Assembly (NCBI GenBank): GCA_020719045.1
Contig: DYQY01000001.1
Span: 164,207-228,206 of the forward strand
Direction of reading: 5' to 3'
Source of the DNA: Candidatus Termititenax sp.
Lineage (GTDB): Bacteria > Margulisbacteria > Riflemargulisbacteria > GWF2-35-9 > DYQY01
DNA length: 64,000 nucleotides
Positions 5,524-54,831 of this stretch are shown one piece after another. Each line of letters begins with the position of its first letter. Positions within the stretch are counted from its first letter, which is position 1. A model generated the notes under the pieces. The model was not told the DNA's origin. It ran no database searches and saw only the letters and a list, made by a program, of their open reading frames with translations. The translations under genes and the position numbers were made by a program.

Positions 5524-6158
5524 TAAAGTCCTTCTTGAACAATGAAGCTATTTAGAATATCTTTTATTGTTTTGCTATAACGTTTCCAGGTGTCTTCATG
5601 AGCTTTTGCTGTTACGATATAAACCAAGTTAGGTTCTTTCACATATACATCTTCCGCAGAGATTGTAGTATAGAAACTTAAGTCTTCAGTTAGTTCTTGC
5701 CTTCTATAAACAGCGCTTATCTTTTCACTTACTCCAAGCTTTAATGCATCAGCATAGCTTAGGTGTTTTGATGCTAGGACATCCCATCTATCCCAAACAG
5801 CTCCACCTCTATAATGATAAACAGTACTTGCTGTTATTGTTTCAACTGCTGGATAGGCGCGAAGTGTGATTGTTATGTCGTCACCGTTCTTAGGAGTAGC
5901 AACTAAACGGAAATCACCAGATGAAGCGTCAAAGGTCCAAGTTGCAGGAAACACTAAAGAGCAATTCATTGCGTCAAAGCTAAATTTCTTTTTTGCAGAA
6001 GTTGTTTCGACTACAGGTTCACTTGGTGGTAATACAATTGTTTCAGTGGTAATAGTTTGTTGAGTTAATGAGTTTAGGCTTTTTATGATAATGACCTGCT
6101 CATTTTCAGCAAATACCATGCATGATAATAGGACTAGTATTAAAAGGAACTTTTTCAT
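5523..6158 (-). CDS. secreted protein of unknown function
   Basis: A 211-residue protein with a Sec signal peptide (about 1-17, cleavage after MVFA). The mature domain has a LVFPATWTFDAS strand region and ends in a helix with W..YSKTIKDILNSF. That layout resembles small periplasmic or lipoprotein domains of the PsbP/DcrB sort, but I cannot assign a family. The neighbouring divergent gene at 6243 has a comparable layout and may be a distant paralogue. It is the first gene of the operon with valS and folC. A TAAAAT -10 box ends six bases before the ATG, so the mRNA appears leaderless. Confidence 0.8.
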   Translation of the reverse strand: MKKFLLILVLLSCMVFAENEQVIIIKSLNSLTQQTITTETIVLPPSEPVVETTSAKKKFSFDAMNCSLVFPATWTFDASSGDFRLVATPKNGDDITITLRAYPAVETITASTVYHYRGGAVWDRWDVLASKHLSYADALKLGVSEKISAVYRRQELTEDLSFYTTISAEDVYVKEPNLVYIVTAKAHEDTWKRYSKTIKDILNSFIVQEGL

Positions 6159-6164
6159 GTCTGT

Positions 6165-6193
6165 ATTTTACCCCACCCAATATGTTGAGTAAA
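6165..6193 (-). promoter_or_regulatory. leaderless promoter of the secreted protein-valS-folC operon
   Basis: On the minus strand TTTACT (6188-6193) and TAAAAT (6165-6170) are 17 bases apart. The -10 box ends six bases before the ATG, which places the expected +1 on the A of the start codon. No Shine-Dalgarno sequence is present. Confidence 0.65.
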
Positions 6194-6206
6194 GCAAAGT
6201 ATGGTT

Positions 6207-6236
6207 TTGCATAAGCAACAAATTTACTGATATACT
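6207..6236 (+). promoter_or_regulatory. leaderless promoter of the 169-residue secreted protein
   Basis: TTGCAT (6207-6212) and TATACT (6231-6236) have an 18-base spacer. The -10 ends six bases before the ATG at 6243. The region is shared with the divergent operon promoter 20 bases to the left. Confidence 0.55.
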
Positions 6237-6242
6237 AGGCTT

Positions 6243-6752
6243 ATGATTAAAAGAATCCTTATATGTTGCTTATGCTTTCTCTCTTTTGCGGTTAGTGATG
6301 TGTTTAAAAACAGTTCATCTTTAATATTTACGTTGCCAACCAATAAGTGGCAGTTTGAGTTTAGTCCAGAAAGGTATGGGGTCAGTGCTGCAGGGTTTTT
6401 GGCAGGGCAGAGATGGACTAGTTCCCCAGTAATTATGTATTGTGAGATTATTCCAACTAATTATCAATTTGAGATATTTACAAAGATACAGAATTTTAAT
6501 AAAACAAGTAAAGTTAAGGATGCAAAATATCAGCAGTCAAACATGAAGATTAACAGCGCAGTTCCTTATGAGATTACATTTTGGTCAGTGAAGGATATGG
6601 TTTATGAGTATGTTGCATATTTTTCACTTAACAAGGAGCTTGTAGCATCCATAGTGATGAGCTCTAAACGTGAGGATATTTTACGTTTGTACGCTGAAGA
6701 CTATCGAACAGTTTTAAATAATTTTGCTAAGATAGCCAGAGGGTATAAGTAA
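6243..6752 (+). CDS. secreted protein of unknown function
   Basis: A 169-residue protein with a signal peptide (about 1-17). The mature part has LIFTLPTNKWQFEFSPERYG near the N-terminus and ends in a helix YRTVLNNFAKIARG. The divergent neighbour shares this order of features (hydrophobic strand, conserved Trp, C-terminal helix with L-N-x-F). Distant homology between the two is my inference from eye comparison. No known family recognised. The start is set by a -10 box six bases upstream; no ribosome-binding site is present. Confidence 0.7.
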   Translation: MIKRILICCLCFLSFAVSDVFKNSSSLIFTLPTNKWQFEFSPERYGVSAAGFLAGQRWTSSPVIMYCEIIPTNYQFEIFTKIQNFNKTSKVKDAKYQQSNMKINSAVPYEITFWSVKDMVYEYVAYFSLNKELVASIVMSSKREDILRLYAEDYRTVLNNFAKIARGYK

Positions 6753-6757
6753 GAAGT

Positions 6758-7552: not shown

Positions 7553-7556
7553 AATT

Positions 7557-8528
7557 TTATTGCTCCAAAGGTTCTAATTTGTAATCATTGTCATTTTGAG
7601 AAGAAAAGATGTTAGACACACTAAAATCTTCAGGTGGGAACATTTTGGCATTAAGCACAATCTTGCATGAGCTTAATTGTTTTTTGAGCCAAGACTTATA
7701 CGCAGTGTTTTTCTTTTCAGTAATCATAGCGTTTTTAATTAGCTCAGGAACAGCATTTATATCCATTCTGGAAGAGTGAAGCTTTATGCTACAGAGATTA
7801 TTTTCGTCGTAATCTATAATAGGAGAGAAGTTGTGTGGAACTAGCATATTTAGAAGGTCTCCTACGCTTTCAGGTAATTCTTCTATGCTTATATCTTCTT
7901 TGTATTTAGAGAGCTCTTTATTAACGTTTATTTTTGCCCAGTTTATGTTCTGGTTATGTAGAACAGACTGTAAGTAGGCTTTATTGGATGTCACAATTAA
8001 GGTGACATTGTATTTGCGCGGAGGTTCTCCAATAGAGTTTTTTGCGTAATGTTCTTTTATTTCTTCTGCACTAACAGAGTCAGTTGAAGAAGTAAGTGTG
8101 TTTGTAATTTTAGTTTTAAGTAGCTCTTTTCTTAAGCCAGCAGAAAGGTCATCGAGAGTTATTTTTTGTTCTTTCAAAGTTTTCCAGAAGCTTTTTGGGT
8201 CAGGAAATCCTTGTTTTATTTGTTCAATTTTTTCTTGAACTTCAGTGTCATTTACTGTGATATTATTCTCTTTCGTATATTTATTAGTTAAAGCGGTTTC
8301 AACTAGCTCTTCGATTACTGCTTTTTTTATTTCTTTCATTTCGAGTTGTTCAATAGTATCGTTTTGGAAAGTAAGATAGGATCTGTAATTGTTCATAAAT
8401 TGATTCTGTAGAAGATTAAACTCTTTAACAGAGATTGGAATTGTGTCTATCGTTAATGCTGGTTCTACTGCAAAACTCATCGAAAGAGCTAGTGGTATAA
8501 AGATAAATTTGGAAAAACTTCTTATCAT
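7557..8528 (-). CDS. SurA N-domain-like periplasmic chaperone
   Basis: A 323-residue secreted protein with a signal peptide (about 1-21, ending SFAVE). The following region (IDTIPISVKEFNLLQNQF, a helical bundle, then SVSAEEIKEHYAKN) matches the N-terminal chaperone part of SurA/PrsA-type peptidyl-prolyl isomerases. A canonical parvulin domain is not evident. The segment after PPRKYNVTLIV may be a degenerate one. A role in outer-membrane protein folding is plausible. First gene of the pair with mazG, with a -10 box six bases from the ATG. Confidence 0.65.
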   Translation of the reverse strand: MIRSFSKFIFIPLALSMSFAVEPALTIDTIPISVKEFNLLQNQFMNNYRSYLTFQNDTIEQLEMKEIKKAVIEELVETALTNKYTKENNITVNDTEVQEKIEQIKQGFPDPKSFWKTLKEQKITLDDLSAGLRKELLKTKITNTLTSSTDSVSAEEIKEHYAKNSIGEPPRKYNVTLIVTSNKAYLQSVLHNQNINWAKINVNKELSKYKEDISIEELPESVGDLLNMLVPHNFSPIIDYDENNLCSIKLHSSRMDINAVPELIKNAMITEKKNTAYKSWLKKQLSSCKIVLNAKMFPPEDFSVSNIFSSQNDNDYKLEPLEQ

Positions 8529-8534
8529 AGCCTA

Positions 8535-8540
8535 ATTATA
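8535..8540 (-). promoter_or_regulatory. -10 box of the SurA-like gene, leaderless geometry
   Basis: TATAAT on the minus strand ends six bases before the ATG at 8528. The -35 region is weak. No Shine-Dalgarno sequence fits between. Confidence 0.55.
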
Positions 8541-15373: not shown

Positions 15374-15601
15374 AATATTTTTCTGTTTGTAAGTTACAAT
15401 AATAAAAAAATTAAACAAAATTGTACACTACCAGATCCGCTGTATTCAATGTTGCAGTGGATGACTCAAAAATTAATTCAATGTGAAGCAGAAAGCATTG
15501 TTGGTCAGAGCAGGTTAGCATTTATTGAAAAATTAATACCATTTTTGGTGCGCAAAACTAGTTATACACCTAGTATATTTTTCAAAATAAATAAAACTTA
15601 A
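15374..15601 (+). pseudogene. possible gene remnant, unknown
   Basis: An open frame of about 75 codons fills the space between two methyltransferase genes. The only ATG (15449) gives a 50-residue peptide beginning MLQWMTQKLIQCEAESIVGQ. No ribosome-binding site precedes it, and its end overlaps the convergent methyltransferase by 20 bases. It may be the 3' tail of a decayed gene of the polysaccharide cluster. I do not recognise it and chance is possible. Confidence 0.22.
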
Positions 15602-16220
15602 TTAGTTTATCTTCGATTATAACTTTTGAAAAACCAACATTATTTTGAATCCAGGTTATCGTTTCTTTTTGATAAATAAACACATGAGCTGGGTCATCTT
15701 TATAGTACCATTTCGTAAAACCTATAGTCGCATCATAAAGTGAGGTCATGCAAAAGAGTGCTCCGTTATTCTTAAGTAAGCTTTTAAGTAATTTGAATTC
15801 TTTTAGAGGGTCATAGAAATGCTCTACCACCTCACAGCAAGCAATGTAGTCATATTGATGATTTAGAAGTTCTGGGAAGTTGTGGAAATAGGGGTCATAT
15901 AGTTTAATGTTATAACCATCATCAGTTAATAATTTTGATATTACTGGTCCTGTACCAGCACCAAAGTCTAGCCCTTGGTGTGTTGATGTGTATTCTTTAA
16001 AGATAGCTTTTGTTATTGGAGATACAAAGTTTTGATAACGGATATCATTGACATCATTATTATGCGTCTCATATCTTTTCTTTTCTGAAATAGAATCAAG
16101 CAGAAAATGTTTTGGGCGAAATATTCCTGAGCAAGTTGAGCAGATAAAGAATTTTTCTTGGAAGAAGTTTTCGGAAAGACTGCCGCAAAGAGGACAAGTT
16201 GGATTAATTGTGGAATTCAT
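15582..16220 (-). CDS. class I SAM-dependent methyltransferase with zinc-ribbon N-terminus
   Basis: A 212-residue protein. The N-terminus carries two CxxC pairs (CPLCGS and CSTCSG) that form a zinc ribbon. Next comes a methyltransferase core with GLDFGAGTGPVISKLL, IKLYDPYF and DYIACCEVVEHFYDPLKEF. Such CxxC-methyltransferases occur in polysaccharide and secondary-metabolite loci. It is convergent to the polysaccharide operon. A -10 box sits six bases before the ATG and no Shine-Dalgarno site is present. Confidence 0.85.
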   Translation of the reverse strand: MNSTINPTCPLCGSLSENFFQEKFFICSTCSGIFRPKHFLLDSISEKKRYETHNNDVNDIRYQNFVSPITKAIFKEYTSTHQGLDFGAGTGPVISKLLTDDGYNIKLYDPYFHNFPELLNHQYDYIACCEVVEHFYDPLKEFKLLKSLLKNNGALFCMTSLYDATIGFTKWYYKDDPAHVFIYQKETITWIQNNVGFSKVIIEDKLIKFYLF

Positions 16221-16226: not shown

Positions 16227-16232
16227 ATTTTA
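16227..16232 (-). promoter_or_regulatory. -10 box of the zinc-ribbon methyltransferase gene, leaderless geometry
   Basis: TAAAAT on the minus strand ends six bases before the ATG at 16220. The -35 region is weak. Confidence 0.5.
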
Positions 16233-18818: not shown

Positions 18819-18847
18819 TTTTCAATATTTAAAAAATGAGCTAAAAT
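18819..18847 (+). promoter_or_regulatory. promoter of carB, near-leaderless
   Basis: TTTTCA (18819-18824) and TAAAAT (18842-18847) have a 17-base spacer. The -10 ends nine bases before the ATG, which leaves about three untranslated bases. AAGGA lies just before the ATG but would be only partly transcribed. Confidence 0.5.
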
Positions 18848-18856: not shown

Positions 18857-21800
18857 ATGCCAAAAAGAACAGACATAAAAAAAATACTCATTATCGGGTC
18901 AGGACCAATCGTTATTGGGCAAGCATGTGAGTTTGATTATTCCGGAACACAAGCAGTTAAAGCGTTAAAAGAAGAAGGCTACGAAGTTATATTAATTAAC
19001 AGTAACCCAGCCTCAATTATGACTGATCCAGAGATTGCCGATAGAACCTTTATTGAGCCAATTACTCCTACAACAGTTGCCAAAATAATAGAGAAGGAAA
19101 AACCAGACGCGTTACTTCCAACTATGGGTGGCCAAACAGCATTGAACACAGCGAAAGCTTTGTATGAAGATGGAACCCTGGAGAAGTATGGCGTAGAACT
19201 TATTGGTGCAAAATATGAGGCCATAAATAAGGCCGAAGATAGATTTTTGTTTAAAGAAGCGATGAAAAAGATTGGAGTAGGAACTCCTGCATCAGACTTT
19301 GCGTATACTGTAGAGGATGCTCTTAGGATCTCAGAGAGTATTGGATATCCGCTTATACTACGACCTGCCTTTACCCTTGGTGGAACAGGTGGTGGAATCG
19401 CTTATAATCGTGAAGAATTAATAGAATTAGTTGCTAAAGGTATTCATGAGAGTCCAATTAACCAAGTTTTAGTTGAGCAGTCTGTCTTGGGCTGGAAAGA
19501 ATATGAGCTAGAAGTAATGAAGGACTCGAAGGATAACGTAACAATTATTTGTTCAATAGAGAATTTTGATGCAATGGGCGTTCATACTGGAGACAGTATT
19601 ACAGTTGCTCCAGCTCAAACATTAACTGATAAAGAATATCAGAGGTTAAGAGACTATTCTTTGGCAATTATGCGAGAAATTGGCGTTGATTGTGGCGGTA
19701 GTAATATTCAGTTTGCAGTTAATCCAGATAATGGCAATGTAATAGTTATTGAGATGAATCCAAGAGTATCAAGAAGCTCGGCGTTAGCATCCAAGGCAAC
19801 AGGGTTCCCGATAGCTAAATTTGCTGCAAAACTAGCGGTTGGCTATACTTTAGATGAGATACCAAACGATATTACTCAAGAAACTCCCGCTTCATTTGAG
19901 CCTACCTTAGATTATGTTGTAACGAAGATTCCAAGATTTGCTTTTGAGAAATTCCCAAATGCAGACGCTACGCTTAACACAACAATGAAGTCAGTTGGTG
20001 AGGCAATGGCTATTGGAAGAACTTTTAAGGAAAGCATGAATAAGGCACTACGCTCAATGGAAATAGGTCATTATGGTTTTGATAATAAAGGAACTATTGA
20101 TAGTTTATTATTGATAGAGAAGCTTAGAGTCCCTAATGTGGACAGGATCTACTACATTAAAGAGGCGTTTAGGCAGAGTTATACTGTTGAAGAGATTTAT
20201 GATATTACTAAAATTGATCCTTGGTTTTTGTCACAGCTAAAAGAAATATATGACCTTGAGCTAGAAATAGCACAAACAGAAGACATCTCTTCTGAATTAC
20301 TATATAAAGCAAAGCAATATGGATTTTCAGATAACCATTTAGCACAGATTCTTGGTGTTAAAGAGACAGAAGTAAGACAGGTACGTAAGGAAATGGGCAT
20401 CGCGCCTGTTTATAAAATGGTTGATACTTGCGCAGCAGAATTTATTGCAAAAACACCATATTATTATTCAACATACGATGATGAAGATGAGGTTATTCCA
20501 TCAAGTAGAGACAAGATAATGGTTTTAGGTGGCGGACCAAACAGAATAGGTCAAGGCATAGAGTTTGACTATTGTTGTGTACACGCTTCTTTAGCTATTA
20601 GAGAAATGGGCAAAGAATCAATAATGGTTAATAGTAATCCAGAAACAGTAAGTACAGACTATGATATCTCTGACAGATTATATTTTGAACCACTTACATT
20701 CGAAGATGTTATGGCAGTAATCGAGAAAGAAAAGCCAAAAGGTGTAATAGTTCAGTTTGGTGGACAGACTCCATTAAAACTTGCAGACAGATTATTAGAA
20801 GCAGGAGCTCCTATTATTGGTACATCACCAAAGTCGATTGACTTAGCAGAAGATAGAGAATTGTTTGGAGAGCTAGTTAACAAGTTAGGCCTTAAGCAAC
20901 CAAATAATGGGATAGCAAGAAATATTGACGAAGCGATTACCAACGCATCAAGAATTGGATATCCAGTAGTAGTTCGTCCATCATATGTTTTAGGTGGAAG
21001 AGCGATGGAGATAGTTTATGACGAGGCAGACTTGAGAAGGTATATGACTTATGCTGTAGTTGCATCTGAAGATAGACCAGTATTGATAGACTCATTTTTG
21101 GAAAATGCGGTAGAGGTAGACGTTGATGCTGTAGCAGACGGAAAAGACTGTGTTATTGCTGGAATTATGGAGCATATTGAAGAAGCAGGAATCCATTCAG
21201 GAGACAGTGCGTGTATTCTTCCACCTCAGCATTTAAGTGAGAAGGTTATTAAAGTTATTAAAGAGCAAACAAAAGAGTTAGCTTTAGCACTACAAGTTAT
21301 AGGATTAATGAATATTCAGTTTGCTGTTAAAGATGAGGATGTTTATATTTTAGAAGTTAATCCAAGAGCCTCCCGTACAGTTCCTTTTGTATCCAAAGCA
21401 AATGGCGTTCAGTGGGCAAAGATGGCAACAAGAGTAATGTTAGGTGAGACAATTAAGAGCCTTGGATTAAAAGAAGTTCATATTCCTTATATCGCAGTTA
21501 AGGAAGCAGTCCTTCCATTTGCAAAGTTTACTGGTCAGGATACGATCCTAGGCCCCGAGATGAAATCTACTGGTGAAGTAATGGGAATATCGCCTTATTT
21601 TGGAAATGCATTTGCAAAAGCACAGATTGGTGCTGGTGAGAAATTTCCACTTAAGGGAACAGCCTTTGTGTCAGTAAATAATAAGGACAAAGCAGGTGTA
21701 GCAGTAGTGGTGGAAGGCTTAATTAAGCAGGGGTTTAAGATAGTATCTACTAAAGGAACAGCTCAGTACCTTAGAGAAAAAGGGTTTGAGGTTCAGGAAA

Positions 21801-22057
21801 TACTTAAAGTTCATGAAGGAAGACCAAATATTACAGACTTAATGATGAATAAGGAAATTGATTTAATTATTAATACACCTATTGGAAAGAATGCTGTGTC
21901 TGATGATAAGCATATTAGACATACAGCGTTGAAATATAAGATATTTACGGTAACAACAATTGCAGCGGCGAAGGCAGCTGTTGAAGGTGTTCGAAGCGCT
22001 AAGTACCACGAGAATCAAGTTAAAAGTTTACAGGAGCATTATTTAGACATCGTTTAG
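18857..22057 (+). CDS. carB: carbamoyl-phosphate synthase large subunit
   Basis: CarB (1066 residues) makes carbamoyl phosphate from bicarbonate, ammonia (from the CarA glutaminase) and two ATP, for pyrimidine and arginine synthesis. The two homologous halves each carry a dinucleotide-like start ([20 protein letters not shown]; then [17 protein letters not shown]), an ATP-grasp domain and the MNPR or VNPR catalytic segment. The C-terminal MGS-type allosteric domain (about 930-1066) is present. Length is normal. carA is not adjacent. The 3' end overlaps the convergent GNAT gene by four bases. Confidence 0.98.
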
Positions 22058-22557
22058 TAGATTTTAACTGTATAGAGCACGTTGGGAGAAGAAGCTGTTC
22101 TCGTAACGGATAGCTGGTATTTCTCGTTTTTGTCTCTCAAAGAGTTTGTTTCACTAAAGAACCTATCATAGAATTTCTCCGCTCCTGGAGAGGCTGAAAT
22201 CGATATTGTTTTTACACCTGAACTGAGGAAAAGGCTAATCGCTGATAATAATAATTCGTCACCAACTCTTTGTCCCTGTTCTTCTTGTACAATGGCAATC
22301 TTTGCTACTGACTTTGATGTTAAGTTTATCTTTATAAAACCAATAAATTCATTATCTTTAGCGGCAAATATTACAGTATTGTTTTGAGTGTTTTTGTAGT
22401 GCAACCAGGCTGATTTTATTGCTTTAAGAATTTTTGGGTCAGATAAATCTAGGTTTGTTACATTTAATAGTTTTGGGTTAAATTGTTCTAATTTTAAGCT
22501 TTCTGACAAAATAGCGTCTGGTTTGTAATTGTAAGCACTAAATTCGATAAGTCGCAT
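22054..22557 (-). CDS. GNAT-family N-acetyltransferase
   Basis: A 167-residue acetyl-CoA-dependent acetyltransferase. The core reads [18 protein letters not shown], then the acetyl-CoA pyrophosphate loop region [12 protein letters not shown] (Q/RxxGxG/A type), then the strand [17 protein letters not shown]. The N-terminal 50 residues are less typical. The substrate is unknown. It is convergent with carB with a four-base overlap at the stops. No clear promoter or ribosome-binding site was seen upstream. Confidence 0.8.
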
Positions 22558-22731
22558 ATATGTGCAAAGCTCATGAATGGTAAATTGTTGGAGAACACCA
22601 GTGCAGGTAAATCAAATTTTTTCGACTTAGCTGAAACTATTTTTGTATTCATATAAATATGTCGAAAGTAGTATTAGATATACACACATATTTTAATTAA
22701 TTTGGATAAGCTCGTTGTGCTTTCGATACTC

Positions 22732-22760
22732 TTAACTAATATCATTAGTTCTTTTATAAT
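22732..22760 (+). promoter_or_regulatory. leaderless promoter of ttcA
   Basis: TTAACT (22732-22737) and TATAAT (22755-22760) have a 17-base spacer. The -10 ends six bases before the ATG at 22767, which puts +1 on the start codon. Confidence 0.7.
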
Positions 22761-22766
22761 GAATAA

Positions 22767-23507
22767 ATGCACAAGCCAACTAAAGTAGAGGTTAGATTAA
22801 ACAGAGATATTGGTAAAATCATTTATGATCGTAAACTAATAGAGAATGGGGATAAGATTTTAATAGGTTTGTCTGGCGGGAAGGACAGTTGGACCTTGTG
22901 TTATTTTTTAAACGAATTTCGAAAAAAAGCTCCAATAGATTTTGAAGTCCATGTTTGTACTTTAGACGTATATTACGATGATAATCAGAAAAATCTTCTT
23001 AGGCAAGGAGTTGCTAGTTTAGGCCTAGAATACAGTATTTACGATAACCAGATTCTTGAAGTAATCAAAGACAAAAAGCGAGAAGGTTCAAGTCACTGTT
23101 CGTTTTGTGCCAGGCTACGTAGAGCGTACTTATATGAGGCTGCACAGAAGTTTGGCTGTAATAAGGTAGCTTTAGGCCACCATTTGGATGACGCAATAGA
23201 AACGTATGTTATGAACATTTTTTATCAAGGAAGAACAATTGGCATGCCAGCCAAACTTAAAGCTACAAATGTAGAGGGAGTAGAGCTTATTAGACCACTA
23301 CTTCTTTGTAAGGAGGGGGATATTGTTAAGTTTGTAGGAGAGAAAGAGTTTCCTATCGTTAAGTGTAATTGTGAAGATACCGTAAAGACTGATGTAAGAA
23401 GGCAGTATGTTAAGGAGTTTCTTTCGAAACTAGAGGAAGAGAATGAAGGAGTAAAACAAACAATCCTTACTTCTATGCAGAATGTAGTTGCTGACCATAT
23501 CTTTTAG
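22767..23507 (+). CDS. ttcA: tRNA 2-thiocytidine biosynthesis protein TtcA-like
   Basis: A 246-residue ATP-pyrophosphatase that activates a tRNA base for thiolation (s2C32). The PP-loop SGGKDS is at 36-41. The CxxC pair C111/C114 (SHCSFCARLRR), together with a later cysteine in VKCNCED, would hold the iron-sulfur cluster used by TtcA. The GHHLDDAIETYVMN segment is characteristic of this group. TtcA fits better than TilS because there is no C-terminal TilS domain and the CxxC is present. Monocistronic with a leaderless promoter. Confidence 0.88.
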   Translation: MHKPTKVEVRLNRDIGKIIYDRKLIENGDKILIGLSGGKDSWTLCYFLNEFRKKAPIDFEVHVCTLDVYYDDNQKNLLRQGVASLGLEYSIYDNQILEVIKDKKREGSSHCSFCARLRRAYLYEAAQKFGCNKVALGHHLDDAIETYVMNIFYQGRTIGMPAKLKATNVEGVELIRPLLLCKEGDIVKFVGEKEFPIVKCNCEDTVKTDVRRQYVKEFLSKLEEENEGVKQTILTSMQNVVADHIF

Positions 23508-23599
23508 AGCGTTATACAACAAACAATTCATACATAAAAAAAATATATATTTACGTTTATTAGTTGGATAAGTGGGCATAACTTAATCAGGAGATATAA

Positions 23600-26500
23600 A
23601 TGGTAAGTTTTAACGAGATGAAAAATATACAAAGTTACTCTAATTCTTCCAAGAAAATGGAGGAAGAGGCGCTCCTACAAAGACTAATTGATAAGAAGGC
23701 TGCGCAAAAGAGTCAAGACAAGAATCTGCAGGAGGCAATGCAGACTCAAAAAGCGGCAGATGCTCAAAAGTTTGAAGGCATAAAAAGCAAGTACGAGACG
23801 CAGTTTAAAGCATTAGAACAAATCGCAAAACAACTTAATGTTAAGGTGCAAGACCTTAATTCAAATCTAATAAAACAAGCAGTAACTTCTTTAGATAAGA
23901 CTCAGCAAGAGGTAGTTCAGAGTATTCTCAAGAACGAACAGTTATCGCAGTTAAAGCAAGAGCATCAGAATTATCAGCTAAAGAATAAAGGTGTAGAGCA
24001 ACAATTCTCAAAAGAAATGCAATTAATGGAGAGCATCGCTAAGGCATTGCGTGTTCCAGTAGATCAGCTTTCTGCAGGAGATGTTCAGAAATTTCTTCAA
24101 ATTATTAAGAAAAGTTCGTCAGAGAATGTTACGGCACAAGAACAGGTTGACCAGCTTGCAAAAGAGCTAGGTGTCCCAAAAGAGCAATTAAGCACAAAAG
24201 ATATTCAGAAGTTATTGGATTTGTTTGGAAAGCAGAAGCTAGGAGCTAGACAGCAAAGTGGAGATGTTCAATCAAAGCAGACAGAAGTTAAAGCTGATTC
24301 AAAGTTTGATAAGTTGGAGGCAAGACAGGAAGAGATTCAAAAAATACTTGATAAACTTAAAGGAAAGCAAGAAGAAGCTCTTAATAGGCTTAACAGTAAA
24401 GATCAAGAATCTCAAAAGGTTTTGGAAAAACAGATTGGAACATTACAGGGGAAACTTGGTCAGCTGGAACAAAGCCTACAACAGCTGAGTAGTCAGATTA
24501 ATAAAACAGTTGATAAGGGTAAAAAGGAAGAGCTTGAAGCGAGAAAGTCTGAGTTAGAAGGACAGATTAAAGATCTTAAAGGTAGCATGAAGGACCTTCA
24601 GAGTCAGAGAACATCTAGACAAGAAGAATCAAGTCAACTTAAGGGTAAATACGAAAAAGCAACCAAAGGACAGGATGAAGCAGGTCAAATAGAGAGTAGA
24701 TTAAAAGAATTATCCAAGTTGGAGCACCAGTTATTATCAAAATCAGATAAAACAACAGAAGAGAGCAAAAATACTCAGATTAAAGAGAAGCTGGAAGCTG
24801 TAAGACATGAGAAAGAAGCATTAACAAAAACGTTAGAAGCATCAGGCATTAAAACTGGCACTAATAAGATGGATGCTCATGGATTATCAAAGAAAGAAAC
24901 AAATAATGATGTTCAAACAGGTGATTCTGAAACAGGAGAGAATATAGCTAAACCTGAAAAAAAAGAATTAGAGAAGAAGGATTTATCTGCTGTTGAGCGC
25001 AAGGTAGTTAAGGAAGAAGTCCCTATAAAACAGTCATTAATAAAAGATATTTTTCTTAAGCTCGATAAAGCGGAGGCAGATTTAAGGTTCCGTGAGGTAT
25101 TTGAAAAAGAAATTAACCAACAATCATCTAAGGAAGTTAATAATAAACTTATAGAGGTAAAAAGCACACTAAAGGATGTTCAGTTTCTGAAAGATAATTT
25201 AGGTCAGATAAACAAGCTGCCAAACGCAGATAAGGCAGCCGCTTTAAAGCAAATTTTAGGTGAGATAAAGAGTGATCAGTTGAAGTCGAAGATAGAAGCA
25301 ACTATCAGACAGAGTAATGTAGCAAATGAAATAGTTGATAGCATAGTTACTGGTAATAAGTCAGAAATTAGTGATGCAGAAGCTGTTTTGGTTTCTGCTT
25401 GTGACCTAGATGATTTAAGCGAGGAACAACTTGCTAAGCTATTTGATGTGATGGGAGATAAGGTTGGTCAGTTAAAAGTTAGCGTTAATTCAATAAGCGC
25501 ACTTAAGCAAGCAATGAAGGCGGAAGCTGTTGAGATTAAGGAGCAAAGAGAAAACTTAGTAAGTACACTTAAGACTATTGTTGAAACAAAAAGTAGTGGC
25601 AATTTAGGTGCTAATGAAATATTGGCATTATTTAACACTGGATCTTTAGGTCGGGAATCTATTGAGCAGCTAATGAAGCAGTTTGAAAATTTACAAACAA
25701 TGGAGTCTCAGGTTCAGTTCGTTTTATTATTAAGAGATTTGTTTGGTAAAGACGTAAATGCCTTAAGGTTGCTTGCGAGTATGTTAGTTGCTGATGGAAA
25801 AGTAGATGAATCATTTATTGAGGAAGAGTTAGGAGTTCTTTTTACCAAAGATGGCGCAGTTGAGGGTGCTCCTGTTAGCAGGGAGGCGTTGGCAGTTTTG
25901 TCTAAGTTTGCAAAAATTTCACCAGAGCAGTTAGCAAACAATGAAGGTCTACAGCAGATGGTTCAGAAGGGTAGAATCGATAGAGAGATTTTTGAAAAAC
26001 TAGTTAAGAAACAAGTTTCAGAAGATGCTTGGGATTATGGGGTTATGTCTTTTAATAAGAACAATGTTGGTTTGCTTAAGGAAAGAGCAGAAATCAATAG
26101 CTTGGAAGATTTTTGGAAGTTGATGGAGAGATTTTCTTCCGGAGGAGAAAGCGACGTATTAGAGACAGCTGAGTTATTTTTGTCTACTATTAAGTTTACG
26201 GTTTATCAAAGAGAGTTAATATCGTTTTTTGTTACACAATATCAGGAGTATTTTATTGACCCTGATTTTCATTTATTTGATTTATACAGTAAGTATATGG
26301 ATGGGAACACGTTTTCCCAGCTATCTGAGGCTAGCAGAGAAGAGCTTTGTTTAGCCGTTTTGGTTAGAATGGTGAAATCGTTTGAAGGGCCCAATAAGCA
26401 TCAGCAGTTTGAAAAGCTTATTGAGATGACTAAGCAAAAGGAAGATACTCTAGACTTTATTAGAAGTGTTGAGGTTTTTGAGTTTTATTTTAGTCATGGT

Positions 26501-26704
26501 GGGATGATTAATCGTGAGTATTTGGATGCGAATAAGGAGCTTAGACTCTTTGATAATGTTACGCAGTGGAATGATGAATTAAAATCAGAACTAGACGAAA
26601 ATACTATTTCGAAGATGATTGTTGGATTTACAAAACCAACCAAGAAACTTGATAGTGTTAATCTTGGTAAATTGTCTGACAGATTTAAGAAAAAAACTAG
26701 TTAG
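23600..26704 (+). CDS. large coiled-coil protein of unknown function
   Basis: A 1034-residue, lysine- and glutamine-rich, cytoplasmic-looking protein with no signal peptide. Residues about 72-98, 143-169 and 183-209 hold three degenerate copies of a unit with the pattern (I/L)AKxLxVxxxxL followed by a second short helix. Residues about 235-420 are almost pure heptad coiled coil. The C-terminal half (about 500-1034) looks globular and helical, with MLVADGKVDESFIEEELG resembling an acidic loop. No family recognised. AGGAGA upstream sets the start. The next gene on this strand encodes a P-loop ATPase with its own promoter. Confidence 0.85.
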   Translation: MVSFNEMKNIQSYSNSSKKMEEEALLQRLIDKKAAQKSQDKNLQEAMQTQKAADAQKFEGIKSKYETQFKALEQIAKQLNVKVQDLNSNLIKQAVTSLDKTQQEVVQSILKNEQLSQLKQEHQNYQLKNKGVEQQFSKEMQLMESIAKALRVPVDQLSAGDVQKFLQIIKKSSSENVTAQEQVDQLAKELGVPKEQLSTKDIQKLLDLFGKQKLGARQQSGDVQSKQTEVKADSKFDKLEARQEEIQKILDKLKGKQEEALNRLNSKDQESQKVLEKQIGTLQGKLGQLEQSLQQLSSQINKTVDKGKKEELEARKSELEGQIKDLKGSMKDLQSQRTSRQEESSQLKGKYEKATKGQDEAGQIESRLKELSKLEHQLLSKSDKTTEESKNTQIKEKLEAVRHEKEALTKTLEASGIKTGTNKMDAHGLSKKETNNDVQTGDSETGENIAKPEKKELEKKDLSAVERKVVKEEVPIKQSLIKDIFLKLDKAEADLRFREVFEKEINQQSSKEVNNKLIEVKSTLKDVQFLKDNLGQINKLPNADKAAALKQILGEIKSDQLKSKIEATIRQSNVANEIVDSIVTGNKSEISDAEAVLVSACDLDDLSEEQLAKLFDVMGDKVGQLKVSVNSISALKQAMKAEAVEIKEQRENLVSTLKTIVETKSSGNLGANEILALFNTGSLGRESIEQLMKQFENLQTMESQVQFVLLLRDLFGKDVNALRLLASMLVADGKVDESFIEEELGVLFTKDGAVEGAPVSREALAVLSKFAKISPEQLANNEGLQQMVQKGRIDREIFEKLVKKQVSEDAWDYGVMSFNKNNVGLLKERAEINSLEDFWKLMERFSSGGESDVLETAELFLSTIKFTVYQRELISFFVTQYQEYFIDPDFHLFDLYSKYMDGNTFSQLSEASREELCLAVLVRMVKSFEGPNKHQQFEKLIEMTKQKEDTLDFIRSVEVFEFYFSHGGMINREYLDANKELRLFDNVTQWNDELKSELDENTISKMIVGFTKPTKKLDSVNLGKLSDRFKKKTS

Positions 26705-26763
26705 TAATTGCTCTGGTATTGTTTTTAAACTGTTTCTAATCACATCTAATTTTCTCTGTGCTA

Positions 26764-26792
26764 TTGCTTCGGTTTATTAATTTATGTATAAT
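26764..26792 (+). promoter_or_regulatory. promoter of the ATPase-coaX operon
   Basis: TTGCTT (26764-26769) and TATAAT (26787-26792) are separated by 17 bases. The expected leader is about 17 bases and contains AAAGG (26806-26810) five bases before the GTG start. This first gene uses a ribosome-binding site, unlike the leaderless units. Confidence 0.6.
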
Positions 26793-26815
26793 AAAGTAAT
26801 TCTATAAAGGTTTAT

Positions 26816-31020: not shown

Positions 31021-31049
31021 TTGACTTACCTCTAATTAGAAAATATAAT
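31021..31049 (+). promoter_or_regulatory. strong leaderless promoter
   Basis: TTGACT (31021-31026) and a perfect TATAAT (31044-31049) are 17 bases apart, close to the housekeeping sigma consensus. The -10 ends six bases before the ATG at 31056. Transcription should start on the A of ATG, with no room for a ribosome-binding site. Confidence 0.8.
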
Positions 31050-34320: not shown

Positions 34321-34349
34321 CTGACTTCAAAAATAATTCATGCTAAAAT
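34321..34349 (+). promoter_or_regulatory. promoter of gatCAB, near-leaderless
   Basis: CTGACT (34321-34326) and TAAAAT (34344-34349) are 17 bases apart. The -10 ends ten bases before the gatC ATG, so the leader would be about four bases. No Shine-Dalgarno sequence is seen. Confidence 0.6.
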
Positions 34350-38021: not shown

Positions 38022-38103
38022 AAAGAATAAGCAAAGTCTCCTTTGCAATAAGCCATGTTAGTGCAACTAACAAATTAAATGGTATTCGCTTTAAGCTTAA
38101 GTC

Positions 38104-38132
38104 TTTAAGGTTTTAGCTTTTAGCTATATAAT
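38104..38132 (+). promoter_or_regulatory. promoter of lysS, near-leaderless
   Basis: TATAAT (38127-38132) ends nine bases before the ATG. TTTAAG (38104-38109) is a weak -35 with 17-base spacing. No ribosome-binding site is seen. Confidence 0.45.
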
Positions 38133-39629: not shown

Positions 39630-39655
39630 ACAAATCAGCAAATAAAAGCTATAAT
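39627..39655 (+). promoter_or_regulatory. leaderless promoter of lpd-lipA
   Basis: TAAACA (39627-39632) and TATAAT (39650-39655) are 17 bases apart. The -10 ends six bases before the ATG at 39662, which places +1 on the start codon. The -35 box overlaps the end of lysS. Confidence 0.65.
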
Positions 39656-39661: not shown

Positions 39662-40966
39662 ATGCACTATGATTTAGTTATAATTGGTGGTGGTCCAGCT
39701 GGCAACGAAGTAGCTTCTTATGTTATTCATAAGGGATGGAAAGTAGCTATCTTTGAAGAGCGTGCGTTTGGTGGAACTTGCCTTAACGTTGGTTGTATTC
39801 CAAGTAAAGGTTATTTGCATAGAGCAAAGTTAGTGTCAGAACTAAAGAGACACAGGATAGAGCATGATAAAGAAAACAAATATTTCTCGTTAGAAGACTT
39901 GCAATCATTTTCCGAAAGAACTATAAACAGAATTTCAATGGGTATCGAGAATCGTATATCCGAGAAAGGTGTGGATGTTTATAAAGAAAAGGCAGTGTCC
40001 TTTGATAAGCAGGAGTTACTGACAGCTAGTGGAGCAAAGATAACTTTTGATAAACTGGTTTTAGCCTGTGGCACAAAGCCTTCTTTCCCAGGAATACTAA
40101 AGGAGATTAAGGATAAGCCAGGTGTTTATACCAACGAAAATATTTTCCAGATAAAAGAGTTTCCAAAAACTATGACAGTTATAGGTGGTGGAGCTATTGG
40201 AATAGAAATGGCATTCTTTTTTGCTAGCTTTGGTGTTTTTGTAGATTTGCTAGAAGCTATGCCTTCAATCTTGGCATATTATGATGATGATATTATTTCT
40301 GAGGCAAAAAAGATGCTTAAGAAAAAGAGAGTAAATGTTTTAGAAAATGTTCAGGCAACAGTTATTTCTGATGATTTAACAATAGAGCTAAGTAATGGAA
40401 GTAAACTACAGAACGATATTGTTCTTATTGCTACTGGAAGGAATCTTTGTTTGCCAGATACACAGTTAGAATTAGCTAAGGATAAAAGAGGTTTCTTGAG
40501 TGTGAATGATAGCTTTCAGACTTCTGTTGCAAACATTTATGCAGTTGGTGATGTAAATGGCATTAGCTTGTTTGCACATTCAGCAACAGACCAAGGAAAA
40601 CAACTTGGTAGATATTTTCTTAATAATACTCCTGTAGACCATGAGAGAGTTATTCCTAATGTTGTTTATACTTCTCCAGCAATAGCATCTGTGGGATTAC
40701 GCGAAAAAGAATCAGAAGGTTGTGAGGTAATAAAGCTTTCATATGAACAGCTAGGAAGAGCTCATATAGAAAAAGAGACAGAAGGCTTTATGAAGATTAT
40801 TTTAAAAGATGAGGTTGTTGTTGGTGCGCATATTGTTGGCGAGCATGCTGAAGAGATAATTTCTATGATGTGTCTTGCCGTTCAGGAGAAAATGACAGTA
40901 GCATCACTTAAAAGACTAATTCTTGCGCATCCTACCTATGGGGAACTGTTTGTAGAGGCTTTTTAA
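39662..40966 (+). CDS. lpdA: dihydrolipoamide dehydrogenase-like flavoprotein
   Basis: A 434-residue FAD/NAD disulfide oxidoreductase. The FAD motif is GGGPAGNEVA (9-18). The redox disulfide is C40/C45 (GGTCLNVGCIPSK), the NAD motif is IGGGAIGIEMA, and the second FAD motif is YAVGDVNG. The active-site H423 and E428 lie in HPTYGE. The arrangement matches E3 of 2-oxoacid dehydrogenase or glycine cleavage complexes rather than glutathione or mercury reductase. It is somewhat short. It is followed directly by lipA (TAATG overlap), which supports a lipoyl role. Confidence 0.9.
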   Translation: MHYDLVIIGGGPAGNEVASYVIHKGWKVAIFEERAFGGTCLNVGCIPSKGYLHRAKLVSELKRHRIEHDKENKYFSLEDLQSFSERTINRISMGIENRISEKGVDVYKEKAVSFDKQELLTASGAKITFDKLVLACGTKPSFPGILKEIKDKPGVYTNENIFQIKEFPKTMTVIGGGAIGIEMAFFFASFGVFVDLLEAMPSILAYYDDDIISEAKKMLKKKRVNVLENVQATVISDDLTIELSNGSKLQNDIVLIATGRNLCLPDTQLELAKDKRGFLSVNDSFQTSVANIYAVGDVNGISLFAHSATDQGKQLGRYFLNNTPVDHERVIPNVVYTSPAIASVGLREKESEGCEVIKLSYEQLGRAHIEKETEGFMKIILKDEVVVGAHIVGEHAEEIISMMCLAVQEKMTVASLKRLILAHPTYGELFVEAF

Positions 40967-41814: not shown

Positions 41815-41820
41815 TATAGT
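41815..41820 (+). promoter_or_regulatory. candidate -10 box of the 270-residue secreted protein gene
   Basis: TATAGT ends nine bases before the ATG at 41830. No -35 of note and no ribosome-binding site are seen. Confidence 0.35.
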
Positions 41821-46062: not shown

Positions 46063-46063
46063 G

Positions 46064-47075: not shown

Positions 47076-47081
47076 ATTTTA
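47076..47081 (-). promoter_or_regulatory. -10 box of the amidohydrolase gene, leaderless geometry
   Basis: TAAAAT on the minus strand ends seven bases before ATG 47068. The -35 is weak (TTCCTT). It also argues against the longer TTG start, which would lie upstream of +1. Confidence 0.45.
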
Positions 47082-49787: not shown

Positions 49788-50750
49788 ATGTATAAATTTA
49801 TTGTACTTTCTATTGTAACTATTCTTGTTTTATTGTTTTCACCTTTTTTTGGTGAAAGATATATTAATATTTTTAGTTTTTTGTATGAACAGGATTCTTT
49901 TTATATTTTACTAAATTATAGGATACCGAGGATAATTTTGGCTTTTTTTGCTGGAGCAGGGTTATCGTTATCAGGGATGATGTTTCAGTCTTTATTTTGT
50001 AATGTACTGGCAACACCTTATACTTTGGGAATTTCCTCTGCCGCTTCTTTTGGGGCATTATGTGCAATGGCTCTCGGTTTTACTTTTAATGTTTGGATAT
50101 TCGACCAAACAGTAGTTTTTGCGATAATTTTTGCAGTGTTATCGTTAATAGTTACATATTTGATAAGCAGACGATATGCAGAAGGAAGAATGTCTGACAT
50201 GCTTTTAATCGGAGTTGCAATGAACTTCCTTTTTTCTAGCCTGATTATGTTGCTTCAGTTCCACTTAGATTACTTGAATGCATTTAAGTTTATGCATTGG
50301 ATGTTTGGCAGTATTAGAAATGTTTCTTATGAGGTTGCGATTTTTGAGTTTACGATTATTGTGTTTGTAACAATTCTTGTTTTTGCTTTACGTAAGGAGC
50401 TAGACCTTCTAAGTTTGGGCGAAGAATTTGCACAAAGTAGAGGTGTGAATGTTGCTTATGTTAGATGGGTGTTGATTGGCATTGGCTCAGTGTTAATAGG
50501 TTCAATCGTAGCTTTTTTTGGCCCAATTGCCTTTATTGGATTGATAGTTCCAAATATCGCAAGAGCTATTTTTGGTGCAGTTCATGGTAAGTTGATTTTT
50601 TCAACTTTGCTCATAGGCGGAAGCTTGTTAGTGGTTGCAGATGTATTATCAAGAGCTATTTTTTCCCCAGTTGAATTACCAGTAGGGATATTTTCTTCTG
50701 TGATAGGCGCGATTTTCTTTTGTTTTCTAGTTATAAATAGACGGCATTGA
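49788..50750 (+). CDS. FecCD-family ABC transporter permease
   Basis: A 320-residue inner-membrane permease with about nine or ten membrane segments. YRIPRIILAFFAGAGLSLSG near the N-terminus, MLLIGVAMNFLFSSLIMLL and the VAFFGPIAFIGLIVPNIAR coupling-helix region are diagnostic of FecCD/BtuC permeases for siderophores, haem or cobalamin. It pairs with the upstream ATPase. No substrate-binding protein or TonB receptor is encoded nearby, so the substrate stays open. Confidence 0.92.
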   Translation: MYKFIVLSIVTILVLLFSPFFGERYINIFSFLYEQDSFYILLNYRIPRIILAFFAGAGLSLSGMMFQSLFCNVLATPYTLGISSAASFGALCAMALGFTFNVWIFDQTVVFAIIFAVLSLIVTYLISRRYAEGRMSDMLLIGVAMNFLFSSLIMLLQFHLDYLNAFKFMHWMFGSIRNVSYEVAIFEFTIIVFVTILVFALRKELDLLSLGEEFAQSRGVNVAYVRWVLIGIGSVLIGSIVAFFGPIAFIGLIVPNIARAIFGAVHGKLIFSTLLIGGSLLVVADVLSRAIFSPVELPVGIFSSVIGAIFFCFLVINRRH

Positions 50751-50775
50751 AGCTTCTAGGTTTTTTTTATACAAT
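50747..50775 (+). promoter_or_regulatory. leaderless promoter of the Fis-type gene
   Basis: TTGAAG (50747-50752, overlapping the permease stop) and TACAAT (50770-50775) are 17 bases apart. The -10 ends seven bases before the ATG at 50783. No ribosome-binding site is seen. Confidence 0.7.
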
Positions 50776-52150: not shown

Positions 52151-52157
52151 ATGTTAA

Positions 52158-52186
52158 ATTGTATGCTATCTCGGGGTTCAAATCAA
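52158..52186 (-). promoter_or_regulatory. leaderless promoter of the HAD phosphatase gene
   Basis: On the minus strand TTGATT (52181-52186) and TACAAT (52158-52163) are 17 bases apart. The -10 ends seven bases before the GTG start, a leaderless GTG case. Confidence 0.65.
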
Positions 52187-52260
52187 GAAAATACATTCAG
52201 TTTTTGCAAGAAATAGTGTACTATGTATCATAATAATTCAATATGTAAGAGGAGAAAGTA

Positions 52261-52476: not shown

Positions 52477-52510
52477 AAAAGTAAGTATAATAGAAGTATA
52501 CGGAGGGGTT

Positions 52511-53170: not shown

Positions 53171-53664
53171 GTATTGATAGTTTTTTTTCAAAAATGACTT
53201 TACTTGAGGCTCTTCAGTCAAAAGAATTGAGAGTTTATCAGAATTTTCTAGATAGCTTACAGCGCCATATAAAGGTACTTCTTCCGAACGTAGATAAGGC
53301 AGATGTTTTAAATGAGATGATGGTTACCAAGAAGACCATGATGGATGAAGTTACTGCTATCGAGGAAGAGCTTTCACATATTAGAAGAGAGATAGCTGAA
53401 CTTGCTAGTTCAGGAAGTGTTTTGTCATATGATGATGTGGAGCGCATAAAGGGTAAAGATATTCAGATTATCGAAACAATTTCTCAGATATCTAGATGTG
53501 AACAAGAGCTTACAAAAAGGATTCAGGAAAGAATGGAAGATATAAGTAGTAGACTTAAAGAGATAGGTAATACTAAGAAAATTAAAAAACAGTATGGTAG
53601 TGCTTATGGCGAGCCAGAGATAAAAAAGAATACTGATAGGTCTTATTTAGACTATTCTGGTTGA
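53167..53664 (+). CDS. helical protein, possibly FlgN-like export chaperone
   Basis: A 165-residue, nearly all-helical protein with a long central coiled coil (about 50-135) and a tail with KKIKKQYGSAYG. The size, helical layout and Tyr-containing C-terminus resemble FlgN-type chaperones for hook-filament junction proteins. It lies 0.8 kb from the flagellar operon. The similarity is structural by eye, so the call is tentative. Its 3' end overlaps the convergent MerR gene by 13 bases. Confidence 0.5.
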   Translation: MSIDSFFSKMTLLEALQSKELRVYQNFLDSLQRHIKVLLPNVDKADVLNEMMVTKKTMMDEVTAIEEELSHIRREIAELASSGSVLSYDDVERIKGKDIQIIETISQISRCEQELTKRIQERMEDISSRLKEIGNTKKIKKQYGSAYGEPEIKKNTDRSYLDYSG

Positions 53665-54341
53665 ATCTCAAGCTCTTGAACAAGAGCATCTATTGATTCT
53701 CCGTTCCTAATGCGATTAAGATAGTTTTCTCTAACTGAAGGAAGGTTTTCTGTTGTGCCATTCTTTTTTATCCAGAGGAGGATTAGTTGATCAACAGAAT
53801 ATTTACTAGTTGAAGTTGTGTTTTCAATAGTTTTTTGAGCTTTTTTAATTAGATTAGGGTCAGATTTTAGAATGGTTATTATTTTTTCCCAAGTTTCATT
53901 TTTTTGTTGTTTGACTCTATGCGCTTTGTCCTGAAGTTCTTTTAGTTTTAGAATGTTTTCTTCGTTATAGGCAGAATATGGATAGCCTGGAATAGAAGCT
54001 TCTATTTCCTGTATATGAAAAAGAATATTTAGAATCTCTTCGTTTTCGGCAAGATACTTTTCTTCGGTTTCTTTTAGTAGTAGAAAACGATTATTGCTCT
54101 GAATTGAAGATGTAGGCTTAACAAAAGTGCTACTTCTAATAAAGGCCTCACCAAGCGAATTCCCCTTTTTTTTAAGTCCGATTATTTGTTTAATAATCTT
54201 GATATCGGAATCACTGTAAAAGCGTACATTTCTTTGCCCCTTTTCAGGTTTAATGTATCCCTTTTTTTCCCAGTACTGAAGCTGTCTATGTGTGCATCCA
54301 GTTTCAGTGCAGACTTCTTTGCTTTGGTATTGAATTGCCAT
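53652..54341 (-). CDS. MerR-family transcriptional regulator
   Basis: A regulator of about 229 residues. The N-terminal MerR winged helix reads QYQSKEVCTETGCTHRQLQY, then WEKKGYIKPEK, followed by VRFYSDSDIKIIKQI. The C-terminal part is helical with no known ligand-binding domain. I place the start at ATG 54341 because TATACT ends six bases upstream; an upstream ATG at 54359 would lie before +1. It is divergent from flgB with 91 bases between, so it may control flagellar genes. Confidence 0.85.
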   Translation of the reverse strand: MAIQYQSKEVCTETGCTHRQLQYWEKKGYIKPEKGQRNVRFYSDSDIKIIKQIIGLKKKGNSLGEAFIRSSTFVKPTSSIQSNNRFLLLKETEEKYLAENEEILNILFHIQEIEASIPGYPYSAYNEENILKLKELQDKAHRVKQQKNETWEKIITILKSDPNLIKKAQKTIENTTSTSKYSVDQLILLWIKKNGTTENLPSVRENYLNRIRNGESIDALVQELEIQPE

Positions 54342-54347
54342 ATGGAT

Positions 54348-54353
54348 AGTATA
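54348..54353 (-). promoter_or_regulatory. -10 box of the MerR gene, leaderless geometry
   Basis: TATACT on the minus strand ends six bases before ATG 54341. The -35 is weak, as is common for MerR-type promoters with unusual spacing. Confidence 0.5.
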
Positions 54354-54397
54354 ACACAAAAAATGTTTTAAGGCTGTTAATTAAGTCCTTGAATTTA

Positions 54398-54426
54398 TTG
54401 ACACTCCCTTATGGCGTTGCTATTAT
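54398..54426 (+). promoter_or_regulatory. leaderless promoter of the flagellar operon
   Basis: A perfect TTGACA (54398-54403) and TATTAT (54421-54426) are exactly 17 bases apart. The -10 ends six bases before the flgB ATG at 54433. This looks like a housekeeping sigma-70-type promoter, not sigma-28 or sigma-54. The flagellar operon would be expressed as a leaderless mRNA. Confidence 0.8.
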
Positions 54427-54432
54427 TGAAAC

Positions 54433-54831
54433 ATGTTTTTCGATATGGGAATAGAAGCTATAAAAGAAGGGTTGTCATTATCAGCTACACAGCAAGGTTT
54501 GATAGCTGAGAATATTGCCAACATATCGACCCCAAAGTATAGACGGCAGGAGGTAGATTTTAGGAGTGCACTAACAAGGCTTATGGGAAATAAGCTTGAC
54601 GTTAATAGGACACACATGAGTCATATGTCTTTTGATTTTAGTCCTGACCAGATGCAAGCAATAATTAAAAAAGACAATGTTACAGCGGTAAATTCAGTTG
54701 GAAATAATGTGGATATAGACAAGGAAATGATGAATATGGCAACAAATAGTACGTATTTTAATGCTTTATCAACTTATACAAGTAAAAAGTTTAATATCTG
54801 GAACTCTGTTATTTCTGAAAGAGTTCTTTAG
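54433..54831 (+). CDS. flgB: flagellar basal-body rod protein FlgB
   Basis: FlgB (132 residues) forms the proximal rod of the flagellum. The N-terminal rod motif (LSATQQGLIAENIANISTPK, about 17-36) is intact. The C-terminal helix with DKEMMNMATNSTYFNALS is typical. First gene of the flgBC-fliFGHIJ operon and translated from a probably leaderless start; flgC follows after 13 bases. Confidence 0.95.
   Translation: MFFDMGIEAIKEGLSLSATQQGLIAENIANISTPKYRRQEVDFRSALTRLMGNKLDVNRTHMSHMSFDFSPDQMQAIIKKDNVTAVNSVGNNVDIDKEMMNMATNSTYFNALSTYTSKKFNIWNSVISERVL

Follow-up and report, generated by a model that had tools for sequence, protein, structure and literature searches.

Several transcription units in the window, the 64,000-nucleotide stretch of DNA analysed here, open with a gene whose start codon lies only six or seven bases behind a hexamer resembling the −10 box TATAAT, which raises the question of whether such genes are transcribed without any 5′ leader or whether the hexamers merely reflect AT-rich DNA. 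All −10 sites listed in an earlier note were reread from the DNA at gaps of 6, 7 and 9–10, the gap being the number of bases between the end of the hexamer and the start codon, and their positions were correct.

At gap 6 and before ATG, TAAAAT at 6165–6170 (−) in front of gene 5523–6158 and TATACT at 6231–6236 (+) in front of the ATG at 6243 were read directly. The same arrangement is found for TATAAT at 8535–8540 (−; SurA-N-like gene 7557–8528), TAAAAT at 16227–16232 (−; methyltransferase gene 15582–16220), TATAAT at 22755–22760 (+; TtcA-like gene 22767–23507), TATAAT at 31044–31049 (+; ATG at 31056), TATAAT at 39650–39655 (+; dihydrolipoyl-dehydrogenase-like gene 39662–40966), TATACT at 54348–54353 (−; MerR-family gene with its ATG at 54341) and TATTAT at 54421–54426 (+; flgB, ATG at 54433). 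The flagellar operon headed by flgB was rightly placed in this class, its −10 being accompanied by a −35 TTGACA at 54398–54403 (+) at a spacing of 17 bases, and upstream of the gene at 31056 TTGACT at 31021–31026 (+) keeps the same distance from the −10, a full-pattern match. This spacing was confirmed for all −35 boxes quoted earlier (54398, 31021, 50747 and 52181). Gene 5523–6158 heads the valS operon; valS itself (2932–5523), previously taken for a leaderless first gene, is the second gene, downstream of this candidate leaderless one; a valS scan of named genomes gave distant matches only, at about 46–58% identity.

Gap 7 is represented by TAAAAT at 47076–47081 (−; ATG of a carbon-nitrogen hydrolase gene at 47068), by TACAAT at 50770–50775 (+; ATG at 50783, Fis-type HTH protein) with its −35 partner TTGAAG at 50747–50752 (+), and by TACAAT at 52158–52163 (−) in front of the GTG at 52150 of a HAD-like gene. 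The last hexamer is present as described, but its assignment is doubtful, since no clear genome-wide signal was found for GTG starts (n=159; 3 and 4 at gaps 6 and 7), leaving a leaderless GTG class unsupported. Longer gaps occur at carB (TAAAAT at 18842–18847, +, gap 9, ATG at 18857), gatC (TAAAAT at 34344–34349, +, gap 10, ATG at 34360), lysS (TATAAT at 38127–38132, +, gap 9, ATG at 38142) and the gene at 41830 (TATAGT at 41815–41820, +, gap 9, ATG). The sites are correct; as a class they are a weak point, the gap 9–10 group being only mildly over-represented genome-wide (19 at gap 9 against 6.5, at one threshold). With a gap of 9, a leader of 2–3 bases is likelier for lysS than none at all, so that this gene, earlier counted as leaderless, is better called near-leaderless; its same-genus ortholog retains TATAAT at gap 10. 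In the window as a whole, a TATAAT hexamer with at most one mismatch stands at gap 6 or 7 in front of 12 of the 37 genes that are first or near-first in their operon (binomial p = 4e-7).

The in silico count proposed in the earlier note, the distance of TATAAT-like hexamers to the start of operon-first genes, yielded a sharp peak across the genome. Gene starts were taken from a simple coding-potential caller extended to the 5′-most ATG, which is blind to motifs and contains errors. Among 634 operon-first genes, 92 carry the hexamer at gap 6 and 31 at gap 7, where shuffled sequences give 15.8 per position (Poisson p = 3e-39 for gap 6). Operon-internal genes (n=586) show no peak, with 10 and 7 at these gaps against 8.5 in shuffles, and the signal is thus confined to the starts of transcription units. 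The excess at gaps 5–7 amounts to about 100 of 633 first genes and 30 of 244 near-first genes, or some 15% (about 130 genes). It is also specific for the start codon: a gap-6 hexamer precedes 124 of 1000 in-frame ATG codons, 5 of 328 TTG codons and about 2% of other codons. Counting the pattern TANNNT alone, no peak is visible; TATAAT or a −35 is required. A preference in the second codon of the leaderless genes was looked for, and nothing convincing was found.

That these are chance hexamers, picked out at a fixed distance in a 34% GC genome where TATAAT-like sequences are everywhere, was a natural objection, as chance matches are expected at about 2.8% of the positions in front of first genes. 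The peak, however, stands well above the shuffles and is missing both from operon-internal genes and from low-GC loci of other phyla (209 first genes; 1 and 3 at gaps 6 and 7 against 6.0), so AT-richness does not account for the gap, as the earlier note had maintained. The hexamers are moreover coupled to −35 boxes. Upstream of the −10, matches to TTGACA in at least four of six positions peak at spacers of 17 (36 against 12 scaled from a control set) and 18 (23 against 8). In the gap-6-aligned logo, positions −35 to −31 show T, T, (G), (A) and (C) and position −14 shows G, an extended TGn accompanying the leaderless −10 hexamers. With the genome-wide histogram and its controls, chance is refuted as the source of the peak and keeps a practically negligible probability. 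Within the set of 159 leaderless candidates, 46 have neither a −35 (at least 4/6), a TGn nor an array, and perhaps 30–45 of the 159 are chance hexamers.

AT-rich ribosome-binding or translation-enhancer elements have been proposed for the FCB group, and a motif that is AT-rich and sits at a distance workable for such elements could be one of them rather than a promoter. A translation signal would be needed in operon-internal genes as well, where the motif is missing, and it would not be expected to bring a −35 partner at 17–18 bp, an extended TGn and a pyrimidine at −1; an FCB-type non-canonical ribosome-binding site was therefore rejected, and we consider this explanation very improbable. A real promoter starting transcription 1–4 bases upstream of the ATG, giving ultra-short leaders instead of leaderless mRNA, would fit the gap 7 and gap 9–10 classes, including lysS, carB and gatC. 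The main class, however, is gap 6, for which the usual 6-base discriminator places +1 on the A of the ATG, and this class strongly prefers a pyrimidine at −1. Such a pyrimidine is expected for a YR start site and is found in 124 of 159 leaderless candidates as opposed to 331 of 718 other first or near-first genes (p = 1e-13). As a general account, ultra-short leaders are hence unlikely.

Much the best explanation, and one we regard as very probable from the sequence patterns, is that housekeeping-sigma promoters are set such that the A of the ATG is +1, yielding leaderless mRNA for about 15% of first and near-first genes, while the remainder use Shine-Dalgarno sites. In the proposed layout the −10 would occupy −12 to −7, TGn −15/−14 and the −35, where present, approximately −35 to −30; with +1 on the A of the ATG, the mRNA would have no 5′ leader. 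Initiation would presumably take place on the 5′-terminal AUG, probably by 70S ribosomes, and the other genes would retain leaders with Shine-Dalgarno sites. Hexamer position, −35 coupling, −1 pyrimidine, ATG specificity, near-absent Shine-Dalgarno sites, restriction to first genes and recurrence in relatives are direct observations, from which we infer where transcription begins and how the ribosome binds.

The two modes of translation suggested earlier are borne out by the distribution of Shine-Dalgarno 4-mers, which occur in 6 of 159 leaderless candidates and in 362 of 718 other first or near-first genes. As the 16S gene is absent from the organism's own assembly, its anti-Shine-Dalgarno tail is deduced from relatives, and GGATCACCTCC is intact in the 16S of those whose tail was read. 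These counts support the coexistence of leaderless and Shine-Dalgarno initiation in one genome, with Shine-Dalgarno genes outnumbering leaderless ones; to call leaderless initiation the default for first genes was an overstatement.

The signal recurs in relatives. In a genome of the same genus (166 first genes), 22 and 9 hexamers fall at gaps 6 and 7 against 3.9 per position, and 20 of 39 same-genus orthologs retain the hexamer at the same gap, compared with 27 of 103 for such hexamers elsewhere upstream. Across a sample of 74 genomes of the phylum, mostly 0.8–3.3 Mb in size, figures that do not suit membership in Deinococcus-Thermus, TATAAT-N6/7-ATG occurs 6709 times versus 4084 for N12/13, and the full promoter with 6/7 and ATG 338 times versus 35 for the reversed pattern. 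The signal ratio ranges from 1.0 to 3.0 by family, and many, though not all, families of this one small phylum carry the leaderless signal.

In the genome itself, 22 of the 159 leaderless promoters have a degenerate 7- or 8-bp tandem array adjoining the −10. An array is also present in the window at the near-leaderless lysS, where Tandem Repeats Finder detects 3.3 copies of the unit CTTTTAG at 38103–38125 (+), abutting the −10. Judged from genes picked by hand, those behind array promoters often belong to amino-acid biosynthesis, aminoacyl-tRNA synthetases and queuosine, and sister species can differ in array type with −10 and gap unchanged. At the hom promoter, for instance, this species has an 8-bp array and its sister species a 7-bp one. 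Of 60 lag-7 arrays, 42 lie in intergenic DNA, which makes up 8.3% of the genome, and the CTTT7-TATAAT cassette was found in none of 72 genomes outside the genus. We tentatively suggest, at less than even confidence, that some leaderless promoters in this genus are cassettes of 7-bp (CTTTNNN, TYACNNN) or 8-bp (AAACNNNN, GAACNNNN) arrays running into the −10. These would stand preferentially in front of genes for amino-acid biosynthesis, aminoacyl-tRNA synthetases and 7-deazaguanine and would be swapped between promoters, the −10 and the 6-base gap staying fixed. Since leaderless genes lack the 5′ leader in which a T-box, riboswitch or attenuator could reside, the cassettes might identify genes that are regulated together at the level of transcription initiation. 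Cyanobacterial STRR-type repeats are likewise degenerate heptamer tandem units and mostly intergenic; the arrays described here differ in abutting the −10 of leaderless genes in fixed orientation and in having interchangeable 7- and 8-bp types.

Comparable genes are known elsewhere. TA-led leaderless genes comprise about 20% in Actinobacteria and about 40% in Deinococcus-Thermus and also occur in Aquificae, some Firmicutes and others; they carry a Pribnow box about 10–12 bp before the start codon, lack a Shine-Dalgarno site and stand beside Shine-Dalgarno genes, the box taking the form TATAAT, together with a TG peak, where GC content is low (Zheng et al. 2011, PMC3160421). Our candidates resemble them in box position, missing Shine-Dalgarno sites, mixed modes and TATAAT with TG, while the phylum does not evidently figure among the major groups surveyed there, the share is about 15% of first genes and the strength depends on the family. 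In Deinococcus-Thermus, a −10 motif 6–7 bp before the ORF was shown experimentally to have promoter activity yielding leaderless mRNA; this TANNNT motif occurs in about one third of genes and is strengthened by a −35 (Zhong et al. 2025, PMC12340547). The distance of 6–7 bp is common to both, whereas here the motif is TATAAT, fewer genes carry it, TGn is frequent and arrays occur in one genus. GeneMarkS-2 recognises a class of bacteria with leaderless transcription (cited in PMC9581028), and in the accessible literature we found no mention of this phylum. Our search for literature on leaderless genes in the groups considered as possible placements (Melainabacteria, Margulisbacteria and Saganbacteria) and in candidate phyla likewise returned nothing.

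A two-mode system already known in other bacteria thus appears to recur across a little-studied phylum, which joins those bacteria in which leaderless and Shine-Dalgarno initiation occur side by side. On the practical side, sequence alone gives gene starts and promoters for these genes, and some starts will be put in the wrong place by annotation that relies on Shine-Dalgarno sites. Owing to its strong internal variation, the phylum offers a natural series in which the gain or loss of the leaderless mode within a lineage can be studied. The array-fused promoters suggest cassette-wise spread or replacement of leaderless promoters, and may define a regulon.

The genome that contains the window (on contig 17; 1.75 Mb in 31 contigs, 34 % GC, 99 % complete) was reassembled from stretches of DNA, and its 1516 genes were called by a simple coding-potential caller that is blind to upstream motifs. 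TATAAT-like hexamers (≤1 mismatch) were tallied according to how far before the start codon they lie, with dinucleotide shuffles as control. Every site listed in the earlier note was present in the DNA at its distance, and the genome-wide count it had called for returned a sharp peak: among 634 operon-first genes, 92 hexamers end six bases (gap 6) and 31 end seven bases (gap 7) before the start codon, versus 15.8 per position after shuffling; in 586 operon-internal genes the counts are 10 and 7 (8.5 shuffled). Starts set by coding potential alone gave the same peak (87 and 37, n=665), as did first genes of the sister species G045 of the same genus (22 and 9 of 166; 3.9 expected). The peak in operon-first genes is real and, as had been argued from the constancy of the gap, it is not made by AT-richness, since 209 first genes from low-GC loci of other phyla show none (1 and 3; 6.0 expected).

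Aligned on gap 6, the hexamer occupies −12 to −7. A G peak at −14 is consistent with an extended −10, and T-T-(G)-(A)-(C) stands out at −35 to −31. TTGACA matches (at least 4/6) are most numerous at spacers of 17 (36) and 18 (23); the control figures, obtained by scaling from hexamers that precede operon-internal genes, are about 12 and about 8. A pyrimidine, as expected of the base preceding a purine start site, stands directly before ATG in 124 of the 159 leaderless candidates among the operon-first and near-first genes, versus 331 of the 718 remaining ones (p = 1e-13). Only ATG shows the gap-6 signal: the hexamer precedes 124 of 1000 in-frame ATG codons, against 3 of 159 GTG, 5 of 328 TTG and about 2 % of other codons. 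In the sister species the hexamer is kept at the same gap in 20 of 39 orthologs, against 27 of 103 for such hexamers elsewhere upstream. We interpret it as a promoter setting +1 on the A of ATG; roughly a quarter of the individual candidates may have a hexamer there by chance.

Scored with a promoter matrix, the 633 first genes show an excess of about 100 at gaps 5–7 and the 244 near-first genes one of 30, while operon-internal genes show none. The leaderless mode would thus comprise some 130 genes, or about 15 % of the candidate starts of transcription units. Gap 9 is over-represented less strongly (19 vs 6.5), which may represent 2–3 base leaders; lysS and carB have gap 9, gatC gap 10. The two-mode system proposed in the earlier note is borne out by Shine-Dalgarno 4-mers, which precede 6 of the 159 candidates versus 362 of the 718 others. 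Calling leaderless initiation the default for first genes, however, proved too strong, because Shine-Dalgarno is the commoner signal and the anti-Shine-Dalgarno tail is kept in the relatives' readable 16S genes (the assembly itself holds no 16S).

Ortholog comparison revealed that some leaderless promoters terminate a degenerate tandem array whose units are 7 or 8 bp long. Such arrays lie within 36 bp directly upstream of 23 of 443 intergenic TATAATs and directly downstream of none of 442, while permuted hexamers gave 0–2, except for forms overlapping or complementing TATAAT. Intergenic DNA, 8.3 % of the genome, holds 42 of the 60 lag-7 arrays. Among the 159 candidates 22 bear an array, and their −10 lies at gap 6 in 14 cases and at gap 7 in 8; arrays abutting the −10 are found at lysS (window 38103–38132) and, among other places, on contigs C20 (3229–3272 and 10475–10532), C22 (39943–39988) and C31 (77308–77346). 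The array genes named by Pfam, including a few with slightly longer leaders, encode a MetH-type methyltransferase, HisB, homoserine dehydrogenase, a LeuA/homocitrate-synthase-type enzyme, chorismate mutase-prephenate dehydratase, a class-III aminotransferase, an aspartate-semialdehyde dehydrogenase-type protein, a PLP enzyme (ThrC-like by eye), AspS, GlyS, GlyQ, LysS, QueC and a QueD-type protein, the last two for queuosine. Amino-acid biosynthesis and aminoacyl-tRNA synthetases account for 12 of 25 array genes but for none of the 23 leaderless genes sampled that lack an array (p = 9e-5), a contrast that is a lead and not a test, as the category was picked after the genes were seen and gene names were assigned by hand. 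As a lead, then, these genes and those for queuosine appear frequent behind array promoters.

Arrays are apparently exchanged between promoters in the course of evolution. Upstream of hom, our genome reads ...AAATAAACATT-ATAATAACGTT-ATG (L021:3278) and the sister species ...AAATAAACATT-AAGCTTTAGGCTTTCAGCTTTTAGCTTTTAGCTTT-ATAATAAATAT-ATG (L225/L267), so that a 35-base CTTT-type array stretch lies exactly between the shared AAATAAACATT and the shared ATAATA; near-identical copies of it precede several other sister-species genes. The array class also differs at a class-III aminotransferase gene and an ABC-transporter ATPase gene. The exact CTTT7-TATAAT form has 8 copies in our genome, 6 in the sister species and none in 72 other genomes. 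Degenerate heptamer arrays occur in other phyla, without placement on the −10; a contig of the clostridial Haloimpatiens lingqiaonensis (L060) carries many (AAATATC and AAGTAAG types) in several places, which shows that they are not confined to this lineage. We infer any function from association: the arrays may be sites read by an activator, or may be function-free and spread via recombination.

Other repeats were also seen. Three copies of a TTCAC-type array (C3:122584–122616, C24:138855–138887 and C24:149119–149151) share identical or near-identical flanks and look like a dispersed small element. Several 24-mers repeated exactly 4152 bp apart on C20 (about 20560–28400) suggest that a segment of about 4 kb has been duplicated in tandem almost perfectly.

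In 74 genomes of the phylum, the exact string TATAAT-N6/7-ATG is present 6709 times and its N12/13 counterpart 4084 times; TTGAC-N-TANAAT-N6/7-ATG is present 338 times and the pattern in reverse 35 times. By family, the ratio is 3.0 in f26, 2.5 in f21, 2.0 in f25, 1.7 in the genus itself and 1.4 in the other family of its order. Unlike most of the phylum, f3 (genome G051), f8, f12 and f16 show no excess at 6–7 over 12–13 (ratio 1.0) and appear to have lost the mode or to use it weakly. By these counts the mode is widespread in the phylum but not uniform. In f21 relatives (L287, L291), hom lacks arrays and is preceded by TATTAT-CCCCCC-ATG and TATGAT-AACCCGC-ATG, and appears leaderless there too. 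In many bacteria leaderless genes are marked by a Pribnow box about 10–12 bp before the start (PMC3160421), and in Deinococcus-Thermus, with the box 6–7 bp upstream, they were tested by experiment (PMC12340547). The predicted leaderless genes of this Termititenax genome are a further case of this known kind, in another lineage.
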